Below, in pieces: positions 10,335-34,776 of a DNA stretch of 35,198 nucleotides. Origin of the DNA: a virus; the IMG/VR virus record IMGVR_UViG_3300042401_000051, positions 1-35,198 of that record; one strand, given 5' to 3'. The stretch's first letter is position 1, and each line of letters opens with the position of its first letter. The notes beneath the pieces are model-generated. The model saw only the letters and a program-made list of their open reading frames with translations. It did no database searches and was not told where the DNA came from. A program made the translations under genes and the position numbers.

Positions 10335-11009
10335 ATGACTCATGTAATGATTGCAATGCCTGTCTATACAGGAACTGTTCATATCGGAACAATGCACAGT
10401 CTGATAGATGACTTAATCCAATTAGTTTCTAGAGGCGATAGATTTACGCTTGTTGATGATATTGGTAACGCTTTGATAGCCGATTGCCGAGGAGTAATTG
10501 CTACTAATTTTTACCATTCAGATTGCGATCAGCTTGTTTTTGTTGATTCAGATGTTTGTTGGGAGCGTGGAGCGCTTTTAAGGCTTATAGATCATCCTGT
10601 CGATTTAGTAGGTGGAATATACGCTTCAAGGGTAGAACCTGTTCAATATATGGTCAAATACTTAGATAAACCTGAGCTTTGGGCAGATCCTGAAACTAAA
10701 TTATTGGAAGTTGAAGCTATTCCTGCTGGATTTACCAAGATCAGTAGGAACTGCATAGAGAAAATGATTAAAGCATTTCCTGAAAAATACTTTCACAAAA
10801 GCGCTATTAATGAGGAGTTCTATCCATTATTTGACTCTTACATTGTCGATAGAAATGGACTGAAATTTAAGCATGGAGAAGATTACAGCTTTTGTTACAA
10901 ATGGATTTCTATTGGTGGGAAAGTATGGATAGATCCTGAAATTGGTATGGGTCATGTAGGACTCAAAGTTTTTGAAGGACACCTAGGGAATTATTTGCGA
11001 AATCGTTAA
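10335..11009 (+). CDS. Glycosyltransferase-like protein (GT-A type)
   Basis: A 224-residue protein. The N-terminus MIAMPVYTGTVHIGTMHSL is a Rossmann-like nucleotide-sugar binding start, and FVDSDVCW at 69-76 holds the DxD motif (D71, D73) that binds the metal and the nucleotide sugar. DLVGGIYASR and the acidic HGEDYSFCYKW follow as in GT-A enzymes. It would transfer a sugar to a virion protein or to host surface glycan; substrate unknown. It sits between the coat operon terminator and structural genes, so virion glycosylation or lipopolysaccharide change are both possible. The ribosome site GAAGGAAGAAG precedes the ATG. Confidence 0.78.
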   Translation: MTHVMIAMPVYTGTVHIGTMHSLIDDLIQLVSRGDRFTLVDDIGNALIADCRGVIATNFYHSDCDQLVFVDSDVCWERGALLRLIDHPVDLVGGIYASRVEPVQYMVKYLDKPELWADPETKLLEVEAIPAGFTKISRNCIEKMIKAFPEKYFHKSAINEEFYPLFDSYIVDRNGLKFKHGEDYSFCYKWISIGGKVWIDPEIGMGHVGLKVFEGHLGNYLRNR

Positions 11010-16114: not shown

Positions 16115-17311
16115 ATGACCAAACCAATTGACATCATTAGTCGCTCATTAAAAGACATAGGAGCTTTAGAAGCTGGAGAACAACCTACAGCAGATGCTGC
16201 TAAAGATGCTTTTGATTTGATGAATGACCTTATAGATCAATGGTCTAACGAAGATATGATGGTTTTTAATATTACGGAAATCATTTTTCCTGTTGTAGCT
16301 GGTCAAGTGCAATATACGATTGGCCCTGATCCTTCTACTGCTAACTTTATTGGATCGTCTTTTACAGGCACTTTTTCAGGTAATGTTTTAACAGTAACAG
16401 GCATTAATTCAGGAGCTGTAGCTCAAGGTCAATACTTAAACTGTCAAGGTGTAACTAGCGGAACTAGGATTGTTCGCAATCTGACAGGAGCTGGCGGTAA
16501 TGTAAATGAACAAGGAACTTACCTTTTAAACATTACTCAACCTACTCAAGTTCCTGTATTTACTGGTTCAATCTCAGGAACAACGCTAACTGTTACAGCT
16601 ATGACTTCAGGAGCTGTCAATGTTGGTTCTGTTATTAGCGGAACTGGAGTAACGGCAGGAACAACTATTTCAGCTCTTGTTTCAGGAACTGGTGGAACAG
16701 GAACTTACACAGTAAGCGCTTCTCAGACTGTAGCTTCTACAACTATAACTGGAACTATTGTTGCTTCTACTATTACTGCTTACTACCAAAAACCATTAGG
16801 CATTGATAGTGCTTATGTAAGGGTAAACACTAGCTCTAATGGGCAACCAATTTATAATGGCGGTCTTGATTACCAAATGGCAGTTTTAGCTTTGGACAAC
16901 TACAATTCAATTGGTTTAAAAACGCTTAATGGCCCATGGCCAAAGGCAGTTTATTTCAATCCAAATGAACAATCAGGAAATGTGTTCTTATGGCCAAACC
17001 CTTCACAAGGAGAAGTGCATTTATTTGCTCAAACTTTGTTTAGCAATTACGGCACTATGTATGACGATATAGTTCTTCCTCAAGGCTACTCAATGGCGCT
17101 CAGATGGTGTTTGGCAGAGCGTTTAATGCCTATGTATGGCAAAGCCTCTGCAACGCAAATAACAATGATTAATGCTTACGCTGCTCAAGCTAAAGCAACT
17201 TTAAAACGCACCAATATGAAACCTATGGCATCAGCTCAGTTTGCAGATGCAATGCTATCAAGCAGACAAAAAGATGCTGGTTGGATTCTTAGTGGCGGTT
17301 TCTTTAGATAA
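16115..17311 (+). CDS. P22 gp4-like head-tail adaptor with inserted beta-modules
   Basis: A 398-residue protein. The ends fit gp4-type tail accessory proteins, which bind under the portal: [20 protein letters not shown] and [16 protein letters not shown] at the start, [19 protein letters not shown] and [17 protein letters not shown] at the end. P22 gp4 is much shorter (about 166 residues). Much of the excess is two copies of a beta-module at about 83-147 and 149-216, placed after [10 protein letters not shown] and before the strand ITAYYQKP. The same module interrupts the next gene. A GAACTATT stretch precedes the ATG. The module parts probably project outward from the neck. Confidence 0.75.
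16361..16762 (+). repeat. Two beta-module copies inside the gp4-like gene
   Basis: Copy 1 (residues 83-147) runs from [18 protein letters not shown]; copy 2 (149-216) from [18 protein letters not shown] and ends [18 protein letters not shown]. Shared points are SGxxLTVT, SGAV, GVT and a TY strand. Related copies lie at 17720-18364 in the next gene. Confidence 0.78.
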
Positions 17312-17320
17312 GGCTAAAAA

Positions 17321-19450
17321 ATGGCAGACTTTGGCTTTGTTGGCGCAGCTTATGAAGCTCCTTCCATCTATCAAGATGCTCAGGAGTGCATAAACTTTAG
17401 ACCTGAAATTGATCCTACCCTTCCTCAAGGTGCTAGACAAGTTATTGCTCTTTATCCAACACCAGGCTTAACCAATGTCGTAACTTTACAAAACGCTCAA
17501 CAAGTAAGGGGAATGAGAACTGTTTCAGGTGGAGATTACATGGTGGCGGTATGTGGCCCTTATGTTTATGTAATGGGATCAACCTTTGCTGCAACAATTG
17601 TAGGTCAGCTAAACACTTCAACTGGTCAAGTAGGCATTACTGATAATGGTTTAAATGTCTATATCGTAGATGGTTCTAATCGTTACACTTGGCGCATTTC
17701 TAATCCAGCTTCTGCTGTATTTCAAGGAACAATTAGCGGAACTACTCTTACTGTAACTTTGTTGCAAAGCGGAACAATAGCGGTAAATCAATCTTTATTT
17801 GGTATTGGAATATCCAATCAAACAGTCATAACGGCTGGATCAGGAACATCTTGGACTATTAATCAAAGTCATACTATTGCTTCTGCAATCCAAATGAACT
17901 CAGCAACAGTAGGTGCTGTATTGACAGGATCTATGTCAGGAACAACTTTAACTGTTTCGGCTGTTGCTAGTGGAACTTTATATGCTGGTCAAACCATTAC
18001 TGGATCTACAGTAACTCCTAAAACTATTATTACTGCTTTAGGTAGCGGAACTGTTTTAAGTGAAACCATAGCAACAGCAGGAACTGGTTATGGTGTAAAC
18101 GAAAATATAACTGTTTTAGGTGGTGTTTATGGTTCTAGTCCTGCTACATACACAGTTACTTCAATAGGCGGTTCAGGAGCTGTTACAGGACTTACAAGAA
18201 CATTTTCAGGTCAATATACTTCCAATCCTGCAAACAATGTATCGACTACTTCAGATGGTTCAGGAACAGGACTAACGCTTACTTTAACCTTTGGAACTGG
18301 AACTGGTTCAACTGGTAACTATGTCATTAACAACAGTCAAACTGTTACCTCTAGGACTATGTATGGCTTGAACTTTACGGAGATTCCTTCTACAGATGGA
18401 GCTTTTGCTGGTGGTTCTGTAGTCGATATTGTTGATAATTACTTTATTTATAACAGACCTGATACTCAACAATATGCTGCCTCTGATGTTCTTTCACCTA
18501 TTACTTATGGTCTTTCCTTTGCTTCTAAATTTACAGGGCCTGACGATTTAGTTTCATTAATAGTCGATCATGGTCAGATTTACTTATTAGGAGAAAAAAC
18601 TTCTGAAGTTTGGGCAGATGTAGGAACTTTTCCATTCCCTTTCCAAAGGATACCAGGCGCATCATCACAGCATGGAATAGCAGCTAAATTTTCAATGGCT
18701 AGATTTGGCAATTCTTTTGTTTATGTGTCTAGAAATGATCGTGGTCAAGCTGTTATTGTGCAAATGAATGGTTATTTCCCACAGCGTATTTCTACTCATG
18801 CTGTAGAAAACACTTTGGTAAATCAAACTATTAGTGATGCTGTAGCTTATACCTACCAGTTAGAAGGACATGAGTGCTATGTCGTTAGTTTTCCAAGTCT
18901 TGAATTGACATGGGTTTATGATGGAGCAACTCAGCTTTGGCATAAATGGCTTTGGACTGATACTCAAAATAACTACAAACGGCATAGATCCAATTGCGGA
19001 GCTTTGTTTCAAAACCAGTTTTTAGTTGGTGATTACGAAAATGGGCAAATTTATAGGTTAGATCCTAATAATTACACAGACAATGGTAATCACATTAGAA
19101 GAATGAGAAGATGTCCTCATTTGGTAGCTGATTTCCAAAGACAGTATTTTGATGAGTTGCAAATCCAGTTTCAACCTGGCATTGGTTTGCAAGGCATAGA
19201 AACTTTTCCATTAGGCGATAACGACATAGGTATAAACCCTCAAGCTATGTTGCGTTGGTCTAATGATGGTGGTTCTACTTGGTCTAATGAACATTGGGCT
19301 GGAATTGGTAAGGTCGGTAAATACCAAAATCGTATTATTTGGCGCAGACTAGGACAAGCTAGGGATCGAATCTATGAAGTAGTTGTTACCGATCCAGTTA
19401 AAGCTGTCATTGTGTCGGCTAACCTAAAAGCATCTGTAGGAGAAAATTAA
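17321..19450 (+). CDS. P22 gp10-like tail hub / DNA stabilisation protein with nested insertion
   Basis: A 709-residue protein. The start, GFVGAAYEAPSIYQDAQECI with NFRPEIDP and LYPTPGL, and the late part (YRLDPNNYTDNG, then LRWSNDGGSTWSNEHW) match P22 gp10-type hub proteins, which close the portal channel after packaging and hold the tailspike. P22 gp10 is about 472 residues. Removing an insertion at about 134-348 here leaves about 494, close to that. The insertion is two copies of the module seen in the gp4-like protein, the second split by a different module. The gene starts nine bases after its partner. Confidence 0.82.
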   Translation: MADFGFVGAAYEAPSIYQDAQECINFRPEIDPTLPQGARQVIALYPTPGLTNVVTLQNAQQVRGMRTVSGGDYMVAVCGPYVYVMGSTFAATIVGQLNTSTGQVGITDNGLNVYIVDGSNRYTWRISNPASAVFQGTISGTTLTVTLLQSGTIAVNQSLFGIGISNQTVITAGSGTSWTINQSHTIASAIQMNSATVGAVLTGSMSGTTLTVSAVASGTLYAGQTITGSTVTPKTIITALGSGTVLSETIATAGTGYGVNENITVLGGVYGSSPATYTVTSIGGSGAVTGLTRTFSGQYTSNPANNVSTTSDGSGTGLTLTLTFGTGTGSTGNYVINNSQTVTSRTMYGLNFTEIPSTDGAFAGGSVVDIVDNYFIYNRPDTQQYAASDVLSPITYGLSFASKFTGPDDLVSLIVDHGQIYLLGEKTSEVWADVGTFPFPFQRIPGASSQHGIAAKFSMARFGNSFVYVSRNDRGQAVIVQMNGYFPQRISTHAVENTLVNQTISDAVAYTYQLEGHECYVVSFPSLELTWVYDGATQLWHKWLWTDTQNNYKRHRSNCGALFQNQFLVGDYENGQIYRLDPNNYTDNGNHIRRMRRCPHLVADFQRQYFDELQIQFQPGIGLQGIETFPLGDNDIGINPQAMLRWSNDGGSTWSNEHWAGIGKVGKYQNRIIWRRLGQARDRIYEVVVTDPVKAVIVSANLKASVGEN
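17720..18364 (+). repeat. Two beta-module copies in the gp10-like gene, one split by a second module
   Basis: Copy 3 (residues 134-191) starts [18 protein letters not shown]. Copy 4 starts LTGSMSGTTLTVSAVASG at 201, breaks after ALGSGT at 244, and resumes at 329 with GSTGNYVINNSQTV, matching [18 protein letters not shown] of the gp4-like copy. The interrupting part, 18053-18304, is a different Gly/Thr unit (TAGTGYGVNENITVLGG and SGQYTSNPANNVSTT). Confidence 0.75.
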
Positions 19451-19689
19451 TGGCTAATCAAATATGGGGGCCATCTCAAGACAATCCTTATCCACAGACT
19501 GATTTTATGGATGAGCAAACCAAAAGACCAACTAGAGCTTGGCAAATATTTTTTTCCAATCTTTTGAACTTTACTAGAACATCTCCTTCAGCAACGGCTG
19601 GTGGAGCTGTTTTACCAGCTAATCCTGTTGGATTTATTGAAATGACAGTAAACGGCAGAATCTATAAAGTTCCTTACTACAATGTCTAA
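19450..19689 (+). CDS. Small tail-region protein
   Basis: A 79-residue protein. PTRAWQIFFSNLLNF in the middle and GFIEMTVNGRIYKVPYYNV at the end are features I know from small proteins encoded after gp10-type hub genes. It may be a needle or adaptor component near the tail tip, by position like P22 gp26, but it is far shorter than gp26 and lacks a long coiled coil. It overlaps the gp10-like stop by one base and the next gene by eight bases. Confidence 0.68.
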   Translation: MANQIWGPSQDNPYPQTDFMDEQTKRPTRAWQIFFSNLLNFTRTSPSATAGGAVLPANPVGFIEMTVNGRIYKVPYYNV

Positions 19690-20515
19690 TATTCAAATCA
19701 TAACCGAAGAAAAAGTGCAAAAGCTAGAAAAGCATTTTTTAAAAGAAAAACAAGCTGATTGTCCTGTAACGCATCACTTTGCGCCTAATATTTACATCCG
19801 AGAAGTTAGGATTCCAGCAGGAACATTTTCCATAGGACATTACCAAAAAACCGAGCATTTAAACATCATGCTTGCTGGTAGAGTAACTATGGTAAATGAA
19901 GATGGATCTCATACAGAGCTTGTTGCTCCACAGACATTTGTAGCCAAAGCTGGAAGAAAAATAGGCTATATCCATGAAGATATGATTTGGCAAAATGTTT
20001 ATGCTACAAGCGAAACAGATATAGAAAAGCTAGAAGATATATTTTTGCTTAAAAGCATGACTTGGCAAGATCACCAAAGCTCACAAAAACTGTTACTTAC
20101 ATTAGATCATTCTTCTGATATTGCAGACTATTATTTAGCTATAGCTGAATTTGGTTTTGACCATGAAACTGTCAGAAAACAGACAGAAAATACAGACGAT
20201 CAGATTCCTATGCCTTTTGGCAATTACAAAGTAATGGTAGCCAATTCAAGGATTGATGGAAAAGGAGTGTTTGCTACTGGAAATTTTGTAGAAGGAGAAG
20301 TTATTGCTCCTGCAAGAATAAATGGCAAAAGAACTCCTATTGGAAGATATACAAATCATTCAAAAAATGCTAACGGAATTATGGTTTTAAGAGATAATAA
20401 TGACATTGATTTAATGGCAAAAAAAGCTATAAATGGGTGTCATGGAGGTAATTTAGGCGAAGAAATTACTATTGATTATCGACAAGCCTTGAGTATTGCA
20501 ATAAGGAGAGATTAA
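19682..20515 (+). CDS. Cupin-SET fusion protein, putative protein lysine methyltransferase
   Basis: A 277-residue two-domain protein. Residues 25-125 fit a cupin of the type seen in phage genomes: CPVTHHFAPNIYIREVRIPA, then TEHLNIMLAGRV (E58, H59) and VAKAGRKIGYIHED. Residues 180-270 fit a SET domain: SRIDGKGVFATGNF at 189-202, GRYTNHSKNANG at 221-232 with the N-H-S cofactor motif, and GEEITIDY at 259-266 with the closing Tyr. SET enzymes methylate lysines with S-adenosylmethionine. The target could be a virion protein or a host protein. It is encoded inside the tail operon. Domain calls are from motifs; activity is inference. Confidence 0.8.
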   Translation: MSNIQIITEEKVQKLEKHFLKEKQADCPVTHHFAPNIYIREVRIPAGTFSIGHYQKTEHLNIMLAGRVTMVNEDGSHTELVAPQTFVAKAGRKIGYIHEDMIWQNVYATSETDIEKLEDIFLLKSMTWQDHQSSQKLLLTLDHSSDIADYYLAIAEFGFDHETVRKQTENTDDQIPMPFGNYKVMVANSRIDGKGVFATGNFVEGEVIAPARINGKRTPIGRYTNHSKNANGIMVLRDNNDIDLMAKKAINGCHGGNLGEEITIDYRQALSIAIRRD

Positions 20516-21280
20516 ATGTCAGGAGTCGCAACAGCTATCGTAGTAGGATCAGTAGCTTCAGGCTACATGGCGAGCCAAGGAGCTAAAAGCGCTGCTAAAA
20601 CTCAAGCAGATGCTCAAGCTAGAGCGCAAGGTCAGTTATTAGAAACTGGCGCAGCAGCAGCAGATGTTTACAATCCTTATGTTAATAAAGGGGTTACAGC
20701 TCTTAATAAGATGTCTGAAGATCCTTACTTTACCCAACAATTTACTAATCGTGATTTAAACGCTAATTTAGCACCAGGCTATGACTTTAGATTGCGCCAA
20801 GGTCAGCAAGCTAATTTAATGGCATCTAACGCAACTGGTGGAGCTGTAAGCGGAAACGCTTTGCGTAGCCTACAAGACTATACGCAAAACTTTGCTTCAG
20901 GAGAATATGCCAATGCTTTTAATCAATTTCAAACTCAAAGAGGAAATATTTTCTCTAATTTAAGAGATATTGCTAACTTTGGTCTAACAGGAACAACTGG
21001 TCAAGCTAATGCAATGATTGGAACTGGAACTAATATTGCTAGTTTGACTTCTGCTGGAGGAAATGCACAAGCAGCTTCTCAAATAGCTCAAGGCAATATT
21101 TATGGAAATACAGCTCAATCAATAGGCAACGCTGGAATGTATTACGCTATGAATCAAAATCAAAATCCATATCAAAATATGGGTTTAAGCGGAAACAGAA
21201 ATACTGGTTATACATATCAAAATCAGGTAGGGCCAACCGAATCAGGTGGCAATTTAAGCAATTATAACTATAGGACATAA
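20516..21280 (+). CDS. DNA ejection protein (P22 gp7-like)
   Basis: A 254-residue protein. It begins with a hydrophobic helix (VATAIVVGSVASGYMASQGA, 4-23), then an Ala-rich helix, and a central region, LAPGYDFRLRQGQQANL, GNALRSLQDYTQNF and NAFNQFQTQRGNIFSNL, typical of the short internal proteins that podoviruses eject with their DNA. The C-terminus is Asn/Gln/Tyr-rich and probably disordered. With the two genes that follow it should form the trans-envelope channel. It starts on the base after the cupin-SET stop. Confidence 0.8.
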   Translation: MSGVATAIVVGSVASGYMASQGAKSAAKTQADAQARAQGQLLETGAAAADVYNPYVNKGVTALNKMSEDPYFTQQFTNRDLNANLAPGYDFRLRQGQQANLMASNATGGAVSGNALRSLQDYTQNFASGEYANAFNQFQTQRGNIFSNLRDIANFGLTGTTGQANAMIGTGTNIASLTSAGGNAQAASQIAQGNIYGNTAQSIGNAGMYYAMNQNQNPYQNMGLSGNRNTGYTYQNQVGPTESGGNLSNYNYRT

Positions 21281-32837: not shown

Positions 32838-33596
32838 ATGAATTTTTACCCTTTTCACATAGGGGATTATTTAAGTCATACCTCCCATCTTACGGATGAG
32901 GAAGATTTGACTTACAGGCGCATGATTGATCTTTATTACCAAACTGAAGAACCTTTTACGGATACGGCTAAATTGGCTCGTAAGGTAAGGTCTAGCTTTG
33001 AGATTGTGGGAAGTCTTTTGCATGAGTTTTTTGTTTATGAGGATGATGCTTGGCATAACAAAAGAGCTGATGTAGAAATAGCCAAATACAAAGCTATGAA
33101 AGATGGTGGTCGCAAAGGCGCATCAATAAGGTGGCATAAGGGTAGCGATACCCCCCCTATACCCCTCCCTAATCACCCCCTAATGCCAACCAAGAACCAA
33201 GAACCAAGAACCAAGAACCATATAAAAACTATACCCACTCCTGAAGGAGTGAGTTCTGATCTTTGGAATGATTTTTTGGTTTATAGGAAAAGACTGAAAG
33301 CTCCTGTATCAGATCGAGTGCTTTCAAGATTGATTAAAGAGGCTGAATTAGCCAAAATGCCGTTATCGGATGTTTTAGAAACCATTATTTTTAAAGGTTG
33401 GAGATCATTTGAGGCTTCATGGGTTCAGCAAATGGCTCAGAAAGCCTCAGAAATGCCTCTAGGAAGCGATCAGCAGATAGAGGAGGCATACAGGATTGAA
33501 TGTGGCGCAGATCCTCGCCTAGCTCGTTTTAACAGCTATTTTGAGATGAAGAAATTTATCCTTGACCAAAGGGATAAGAAAAGGAAAGTTGCTTAA
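32838..33596 (+). CDS. Replication initiation protein, DUF1376 N-domain
   Basis: A 252-residue protein. Residues 1-100 (NFYPFHIGDYLSHTSHLTDE, AYRRMIDLYYQTEEP-like segment with TYRRM, then DGGRKGASIRWH) fit DUF1376, a winged-helix domain found in phage replication proteins. Residues 101-130 form a Pro/Asn-rich linker encoded by C-rich DNA and 7-bp repeats. The C-terminal half is helical (DLWNDFLVYRKRLKAPVSD, GWRSFEASWVQQMAQK). It probably binds the origin, perhaps the repeats in its own gene, and recruits host helicase, as lambda O does. No helicase gene is seen. It starts two bases after the regulator. Confidence 0.78.
   Translation: MNFYPFHIGDYLSHTSHLTDEEDLTYRRMIDLYYQTEEPFTDTAKLARKVRSSFEIVGSLLHEFFVYEDDAWHNKRADVEIAKYKAMKDGGRKGASIRWHKGSDTPPIPLPNHPLMPTKNQEPRTKNHIKTIPTPEGVSSDLWNDFLVYRKRLKAPVSDRVLSRLIKEAELAKMPLSDVLETIIFKGWRSFEASWVQQMAQKASEMPLGSDQQIEEAYRIECGADPRLARFNSYFEMKKFILDQRDKKRKVA
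33190..33220. repeat. CCAAGAA tandem repeats, candidate origin iterons
   Basis: Four full copies of the 7-bp unit CCAAGAA (starting 33190, 33197, 33204, 33211) plus a partial CCA. They lie inside the replication gene, after a C-rich stretch (33147-33181) and before an AT-rich stretch (33219-33231). A 7-bp unit does not keep frame, so selection is on DNA or the array arose by slippage in a linker. Confidence 0.72.
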
Positions 33597-34123
33597 TGGA
33601 TTTGTTTGATATTCCAAGAATTGCTCCAAAAAGCCCAAAAATGCTTAATTTGAGGGAAATAGGGGTAAATCATGCAATGGAATTTAATCAAATGTGGCAT
33701 AGCAGATTACCAATTACAAGCCATTCAAACATGATTAGAAATGCTCATAAAGTCTTTTATGGAGCTGAATTTGAGGGACATTGTTTTGCATCAGCAATGT
33801 GGACAGATCCAGTTGCTGGCAATCGTATGTCTAAAGACCATGTATGGCTTGAGCTGAGAAGGCTTGCAGTTGCTCCTGATGCGCCTAAATTTACAGCAAC
33901 TTGGATGATTGCAAAGATGGTCAAAGATGTAAAAAAGCGCTTTCCTGATGTAACTATGCTTGTTTCTTATCAAGATACTGAAGTCCACCAAGGAACAATT
34001 TATAAGGCTTCTAATTGGGTTTTGGATTCTGTAAGCAAATTTCAAGATTGGTCAAATGAAAAAAGAACAAGAAATGTCTTACAGACAAAATCTGACAAAA
34101 TTAGATGGATATACAGTTTATGA
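33596..34123 (+). CDS. Mom-like GNAT acyltransferase, first of a pair
   Basis: A 175-residue protein. EFNQMWHSRLPITSHSN, FYGAEFEGHCFASAMWTDP and LELRRLAVAPDAPKFTA form the early part. The signature VSYQDTEVHQGTIYKASNW lies at 123-141. This closely parallels VSYADTGKGHIGYVYQATNF in the next gene, a Mom-family protein. Mu Mom adds a carbamoylmethyl-type group to adenine in DNA and so blocks restriction. This protein probably shares the fold and acts on DNA or with its neighbour. It starts one base into the replication gene's stop and overlaps the next gene by ATGA. Confidence 0.75.
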   Translation: MDLFDIPRIAPKSPKMLNLREIGVNHAMEFNQMWHSRLPITSHSNMIRNAHKVFYGAEFEGHCFASAMWTDPVAGNRMSKDHVWLELRRLAVAPDAPKFTATWMIAKMVKDVKKRFPDVTMLVSYQDTEVHQGTIYKASNWVLDSVSKFQDWSNEKRTRNVLQTKSDKIRWIYSL

Positions 34124-34776
34124 AAGTGTTGCCAATTAAAAATGAAGAATCTTACCCTTGGTTGCTTCAAAAGCATTATGCAAAAAGGATTCCTCAAATA
34201 ATGTTTGCTTTTGGTCTTTATGAAGAAAATGAGCTTGTTGGGGTTGTAACTTACGGAATCCCAGCCTCCCCTGCTCTTTGTATGGGCATTTGTGGAAAAG
34301 AATATTCAGACAAAGTTTTGGAATTAAATAGGGTTTGTTTGTTAAATAACGACAAAAATCAAGCTAGTTTTTTAGTTGCTAACTCAATCAAGTTGCTTCC
34401 AAAGCCAACTATAGTGGTTTCTTACGCTGATACTGGTAAAGGTCATATTGGTTATGTTTATCAAGCGACTAATTTTTTATATACAGGCTTATCTGCTAAT
34501 CGTGTTGATTGGACTGTCAAAGGTTTAGAACATAAACACAGCAAAACTTTATCAGATGGAATGACTTTGGAATCTATTAAAGAAAAATACGGAGATGATT
34601 TTTATTACACAGAACGAAGCAGAAAGCATAGATATATTTATTTTCATGGAAATAAAACGCAAAAAAAGGTTATGAATAATTTGTTGAAGTATGAAATTGA
34701 ACCTTATCCAAAAGGAAATTCGCAGAAATATGATTCAGGATCAACAGTAGAAACACAAGGACTTTTGTTTGAATGA
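34120..34776 (+). CDS. mom-like: Mom-family DNA adenine modification acyltransferase
   Basis: A 218-residue protein from the ATG at 34120 (ATGA overlap with the gene before); an ATG at 34105 is possible. YPWLLQKHYAKRIPQIMFAF at 12-31, VVTYGIPASPALC at 42-54, VLELNRVCL at 66-74, SYADTGKGHIGYVYQATNF at 101-119 and KGLEHKHSKTL are the conserved blocks of the Mom/GNAT family. The product should convert adenine in phage DNA to a bulky N6 derivative, which protects against host restriction enzymes. Residues past 165 are basic (RSRKHRYIYFHGNK). No Com-like translational activator was seen. Confidence 0.85.
   Translation: MKVLPIKNEESYPWLLQKHYAKRIPQIMFAFGLYEENELVGVVTYGIPASPALCMGICGKEYSDKVLELNRVCLLNNDKNQASFLVANSIKLLPKPTIVVSYADTGKGHIGYVYQATNFLYTGLSANRVDWTVKGLEHKHSKTLSDGMTLESIKEKYGDDFYYTERSRKHRYIYFHGNKTQKKVMNNLLKYEIEPYPKGNSQKYDSGSTVETQGLLFE

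Follow-up and report, generated by a model that had tools for sequence, protein, structure and literature searches.

Protein lysine methylation by SET domains is known mainly from chromatin. A small viral example is vSET (A612L) of PBCV-1, an H3K27 methyltransferase that acts on eukaryotic chromatin. Among phages, SET domains are encoded and annotated as such in Stenotrophomonas phages Moby and Ps15, where they are unfused and, in Moby, lie outside the virion cluster. Cupins of the podophage tail families PHROG 12032 and PHROG 24280, such as BA3 gene 7 and X14 gp38, are found in a slot between gp10-like and gp7-like genes, and these proteins end after the cupin (~170–186 aa), without a SET domain. 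Rhodoferax phage P26218 encodes P26218_30, whose annotation goes no further than a hypothetical protein, “similar to putative tail fiber protein”; the SET part of this protein goes unremarked in the paper on the P26218 genome (PMC4657236). Some phage homologues already carry SET labels, including “SET domain containing protein” in BFVD and “pbcV-1 histone H3-lys 27 methyltransferase structure” in the annotation of MW202744. Our literature search on phage SET fusions found no paper describing a tail cupin-SET fusion, a search on methyl-lysine in phage virions gave nothing relevant among the papers listed, and NCBIfam holds no model for the cupin-SET fusion.

We analyzed a stretch of 35,198 nucleotides (hereafter the window), an IMG/VR virus record (IMGVR_UViG_3300042401_000051) that belongs to a P22-like podophage. 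The initial annotation had placed a cupin-SET fusion in a tail operon, and this placement proved correct. The genes run in the order terminase, portal (PHROG 156), scaffold, coat, gp4-like adaptor, gp10-like tail hub or head closure Hc3 protein (17321–19450; PHROG 578, E 3.9e-98), a 79-aa protein (19450–19689; from the ORF list, with homologues in 72 loci), cupin-SET (19682–20515), and a gp7-like DNA ejection protein (20516–21280; PHROG 598, E 5.2e-22), with two further virion-cluster genes 3′ of the latter; the four genes given here with coordinates, and the parts of the fusion described below, lie on the + strand. The end of the 79-aa gene overlaps the start of cupin-SET by 8 bp, and the cupin-SET stop abuts the ATG of the next gene at 20516. 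Rhodoferax phage P26218 has the same gene order. Of 95 cupin-SET loci whose downstream sequence was long enough, 87 have the gp7-like gene directly 3′ of cupin-SET, mostly 1–2 bp off or overlapping.

Elsewhere in the window, positions 2000–2308 encode a phage GroES co-chaperonin (Pfam Cpn10, E 3.6e-11; PHROG 3188), and two adjacent, overlapping genes at 33596–34123 and 34105–34776 are Mom-like DNA modification genes (PHROG 1384, E 1.2e-20 and 1.7e-57). Right 3′ of the coat region lies a possible glycosyltransferase gene (10335–11009; PHROG 1574, of unknown function, E 1.9e-24, and a weak match to the glycosyltransferase PHROG 12406), which few relatives have and which would be another candidate particle-modifying enzyme. 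The gp10-like (17321–19450) and gp4-like (16115–17311) proteins both contain a region matching PHROGs 21413/19101 that resembles an inserted repeat and seems to be missing in shorter homologues, e.g., the BA3 gp10-like protein (458 aa).

According to the ORF list and its translation, the fusion gene starts with ATG, stops with TAA and encodes 277 aa. PHROG 34170, a family of unknown function, covers the protein nearly completely (E 2.5e-90), while its first half also matches PHROG 12032 “short tail fiber” (E 2.5e-35) and PHROG 24280 “tail fiber adhesin” (E 1.3e-29). An AlphaFold2 model built from a natural alignment (pLDDT 90.4, pTM 0.86) consists, in order, of a helix, a jelly roll, helices, and a compact SET domain. 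The jelly roll is the N-terminal cupin (residues ~22–125; 19745–20056), with model strands within residues 29–107 and a Foldseek resemblance to cupins, among them 2fqp (E 2.9e-5). A helical segment follows (residues 126–169; 20057–20188; helices 126–142, 144–156, and 161–169), and then the SET domain (residues 178–271; 20213–20494). Foldseek searches with the whole fusion model returned cupins on top and SET8 further down. Both domain calls of the initial annotation were borne out, the cupin by the tail PHROG families and the SET domain by profile, model, and motifs; this agreement goes far beyond chance.

Several comparisons tie the C-terminal domain to known SET enzymes. In VIA-align, residues 178–271 superimpose onto MLL1, EZH2, and vSET at 1.8–2.2 Å over 80–85 residues with 28–35% identity, and the Z scores are ~7 for the two-domain fusion model. 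A separately made model of the standalone relatives (pLDDT 86.9) reaches Z scores of 12–13 against SET methyltransferases, which make up 50/50 among the matches listed. Profile-profile comparison relates fused to standalone SETs with a probability of 99.9%, and the SET profile matches KMT2B (E 7.5e-7) and vSET (E 1.3e-4) in the PDB, as well as KMT2A and EZH2. The Pfam SET match of the window protein alone is sub-threshold (E 1.6e-3; 19.2 bits vs. a cut-off of 22.4); homologues with the same module score 34–45 bits, above the cut-off, as in the L132 fusion (6.1e-10) and the standalone SET of locus L133 (2.6e-9).

The phage domain is a mini-SET without the iSET insert. Profile positions 37–47 hold 10 columns compared with 44 residues in KMT2B, such that the ~34 residues forming iSET in KMT2B are missing between motifs I and III. 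Spacing from GxG to NH is exactly 28 residues in 137/139 fused forms and 28–30 residues in 17/19 standalone forms. In known enzymes, iSET is a variable region that helps form the substrate groove, and SET membership does not need it. We found no conserved cysteines past motif IV in an alignment of 36 relatives, and hence no post-SET cysteine cluster; vSET-type enzymes also have no such cluster, so its absence is compatible with SET membership. A helical N-cap (~144–169 in the window protein) is kept in alignments of standalone phage SETs and is therefore part of the SET module, where it may stand in for iSET in substrate binding. Unfused SETs match PHROG 34170 only from position ~154–163 onward.

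Conservation was assessed in this alignment of 36 non-redundant relatives, which are 29–86% identical. The invariant SET columns (G193, G195, R217, T218, G221, R222, N225, H226, N231, L244, E261, T263, and Y266) contain the canonical AdoMet-binding and catalytic signature. They cover both glycines of motif I, G193-K-G195, with a predicted role in AdoMet binding (20258–20266); R222, N225, H226, and N231 of motif III, R222-Y-T-N225-H226-S...N231 (20345–20374); and E261, T263, and Y266 of motif IV, E261-I-T263-I-D-Y266, which ends in the presumed catalytic tyrosine (20462–20479). The NHS and GEEITIDY motifs named in the initial annotation are thus present in the window protein, and their residues are invariant or nearly so among its relatives. 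That annotation had also allowed that SET residues might turn out to vary among homologues, which would have spoken against a methyltransferase; with the signature invariant in all 36 relatives, this objection falls away. Across all phage SETs gathered, the [RG][YF]xNH motif occurs in 165/165 and the E..Y motif in 164/165, the sole exception sitting at a contig end. Median pairwise dN/dS values of 0.14 for the cupin, 0.25 for the linker, and 0.15 for the SET domain show that both domains are under purifying selection.

Because the SET residues are conserved, the sequences suggest that the domain is likely to be catalytically active. It is improbable that the SET fold is instead catalytically dead and retained for a binding or structural role, such as that of a distal domain in a tail adhesin. 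Such a role would agree with the family annotation as tail fiber or adhesin, with the loss of the substrate-binding iSET insert, and with the sub-threshold Pfam score of the window protein, but the residues that bind AdoMet and carry out catalysis are exactly the ones that stay invariant down to 29–50% overall identity. Furthermore, standalone SETs exist without a tail domain, and dN/dS is low.

The initial annotation had proposed a database search for the same fusion, and we found it in both cultured and uncultured phages, namely Rhodoferax phage P26218 and many viral contigs, where it lies in tail/ejection clusters. Cupin-SET is the dominant order. Three near-identical records (L152–154) have the reverse order and are the only ones that are truly SET-first; four other candidates for SET-cupin (L143, L149, L046, and L147) were rejected as weak secondary matches. 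In a Paraburkholderia ferrariae prophage (L124), cupin and SET are separate, neighboring genes with a 4-bp overlap, and the pair adjoins a TerS-like gene, not ejection genes. At locus L133, the order is SET, Asp/Asn beta-hydroxylase (PF05118, E 2.2e-13), cupin, and gp7-like, and PHROG 34170 matches the SET and cupin halves of this split case separately. Since the two domains also occur as neighboring genes and in the reverse fusion, the link between them is functional. The row of SET, hydroxylase, and cupin genes at L133 (7989–9422) is in itself a possible cassette of protein-modifying enzymes. Among the records gathered, Limnohabitans phage DC33 (L206; PQ492659) is a 39-kb circular record filed under Inoviridae, a family of filamentous phages for which it is far too large, and the label looks wrong.

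Related SETs without a cupin are also found beside phage structural genes. The standalone mini-SETs of L148–L164 form a well-supported clade in the SET tree and adjoin genes for a GroES-like protein, the terminase, and the portal (PHROG E 8.6e-16, 1e-175, and 1e-147). In cyanophage P-RSM6, the SET gene adjoins gp25 and another baseplate wedge gene, and in L125 it lies upstream of virion genes. The description of SET genes as unusual in virion clusters was consequently only partly right, because the fusion recurs and related SETs sit among the virion genes in several lineages of unrelated phages. We also observed that the marine standalone-SET phages have the GroES-like gene directly beside the SET gene, and that a SET domain lies within a predicted 1873-residue phage protein (L135, 2141–7762).

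The cupin, for its part, is found in the same position without a SET domain. Thalassomonas BA3, Shewanella X14, and Vibrio 5P1a have cupin-only homologues in the cupin-SET slot, and in the T7-like SnaP-R1 a cupin-only protein occupies the equivalent slot, after tail tubular B and flanked on its other side by an unnamed gene and then internal virion proteins. The cupin tree nests the BA3 clade, which has no SET, among SET-bearing rows (support 98/91), and among complete BA3-like loci 25 are without SET and 10 with it. This nesting indicates that SET is dispensable. The cupin is retained as the SET domain comes and goes, with loss as the simpler reading. Three apparent cupin-only genes in the cupin tree (L200, L203, and L204) were rejected as contig-end truncations.

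An enzymatic role for the cupin itself was judged unlikely, because the canonical HxH...E...H metal ligand motif of metal-dependent cupin enzymes is missing: the window protein has H59-L-N61 with no Glu after it, and H59 and N61 are conserved among the 36 relatives. A search of the cupin profile against solved structures gave no phage match, the best match being a bacterial cupin (E 0.046). The structure paper on Vibrio phage Peru-2 leaves the cupin-type protein unmentioned (PMC13320782). The X14 record labels the cupin homologue a structural gene, and the X14 paper cites no mass spectrometry.

Other enzymes appear at this position as well. In Pseudomonas phage PfAn1, the position upstream of gp7 is taken by a hydroxylase along with a weak match to GNAT; in ct3Oc712, the protein found there is annotated with the name of a cupin-fold enzyme, and PBR31 has an annotated acetyltransferase nearby. 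We rejected the idea that this slot always holds a modifying enzyme, as several other phages have no obvious enzyme there; its presence upstream of gp7 is recurrent, not general. One rather unlikely interpretation is a late “particle-editing” module of tailed phages, whereby small protein-modifying enzymes would have been recruited, partly via a cupin platform, to the tail-ejection slot. A lysine methyltransferase, an Asp/Asn hydroxylase, and an acetyltransferase would then modify tail or ejected proteins, with cupin-SET as the tethered form of one of these enzymes.

Our preferred reading, held tentatively and with slightly less than even confidence, is that the protein is an active AdoMet-dependent SET lysine methyltransferase, anchored by its cupin to the tail/ejection assembly and methylating tail/ejection proteins. 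The cupin, a tail-slot protein also found alone, would dock the enzyme on this assembly of a P22-like podophage and carry it to nascent tail/ejection proteins from its own operon. Late in infection, the SET domain may then methylate at least one lysine on these proteins, which could tune tail assembly or DNA ejection and would presumably benefit the phage. This reading is favored by the invariant signature, dN/dS, fold models, profile homology to KMT2/EZH2/vSET, and the gp7-like neighbor, as well as by the slot shared with cupin-only proteins, the varied cupin/SET pairing, and the SETs in other virion clusters. Apparent protein-modifying enzymes (hydroxylase, acetyltransferase) at the slot in PfAn1, PBR31, and L133 also speak for it. 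Against it stand the lack of a conserved target lysine, the dispensability of SET, the missing iSET, the L124 pair beside a TerS-like gene, and a slot that is variable and enzyme-free in several phages.

A search for a target lysine bears directly on the substrate. Among SET-bearing phages, the coat, gp4-, gp7-, and gp10-like families have no lysine with a conservation of ≥80%, the best value in the gp7-like family being 42%; a reverse lysine pattern in SET-less phages stems from one close clade, and we attach no meaning to it. This result lowers our confidence in a fixed virion target, and we consider it about an even chance that a virion protein is the substrate. It also keeps alive an alternative that we regard as fairly unlikely, in which cupin-SET forms part of the virion, leaves it together with or ahead of the DNA, and methylates a host protein early in infection, or else acts on a host protein late from within the cell, its tail location reflecting packaging and not substrate. 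The gene lies directly upstream of an ejection protein, the patchy presence of SET fits a host-dependent benefit, and the unrelated classical SET of phage Moby is located among small hypothetical genes, not virion genes; the fusion to a tail-family cupin and the repeated pairing of the two domains nevertheless point to a role in assembly. Overall, the phage probably methylates either proteins that make up its particle or a protein of the host, and an undescribed modification system, as the initial annotation had suggested, is possible.

An improbable third option is that the enzyme methylates itself, its own cupin, or a small molecule or peptide, and not a separate protein. Permanent tethering would suit self-modification, and all 36 rows of the fusion alignment have K93. 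In the wider set, however, every lysine of the fusion stays below 80%, most SET-less cupin-only proteins also have a basic residue at the K93 position, and standalone SETs have no cupin to modify.

Methylation of tail/ejection proteins, our preferred reading, would add a post-translational layer to phage assembly, with a pared-down SET enzyme built into the tail/ejection operon in a freshwater phage group that is widespread. Because cultured phage-host pairs exist (Rhodoferax P26218, Pseudoalteromonas PH1), methylation of virion or ejected proteins is directly testable. As a minimal scaffold found in nature without iSET, the domain would also shed light on substrate choice by SET enzymes.

Compared with described systems, P26218_30 and the members of PHROG 34170 are the same cupin-SET fusion, ~51% identical to the window protein and in the same slot. 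The BA3 gene 7 and X14 gp38 cupins are homologous to the N-terminal domain of the window protein, and searches with the mini-SET do not retrieve the classical SETs of Moby and Ps15. The vSET of PBCV-1 is likewise a small virus-encoded SET with the same fold (Z 6.7, 1.9 Å, 80 residues, and 35% identity against the fusion model; Z 12.1 against standalone relatives). However, vSET stands alone and has an iSET segment, whereas the phage protein is fused to a tail cupin, has no iSET, and carries a helical N-cap. With SET labels already in existence for some homologues, what is new is the architecture and the place in which a lysine-methyltransferase fold occurs.
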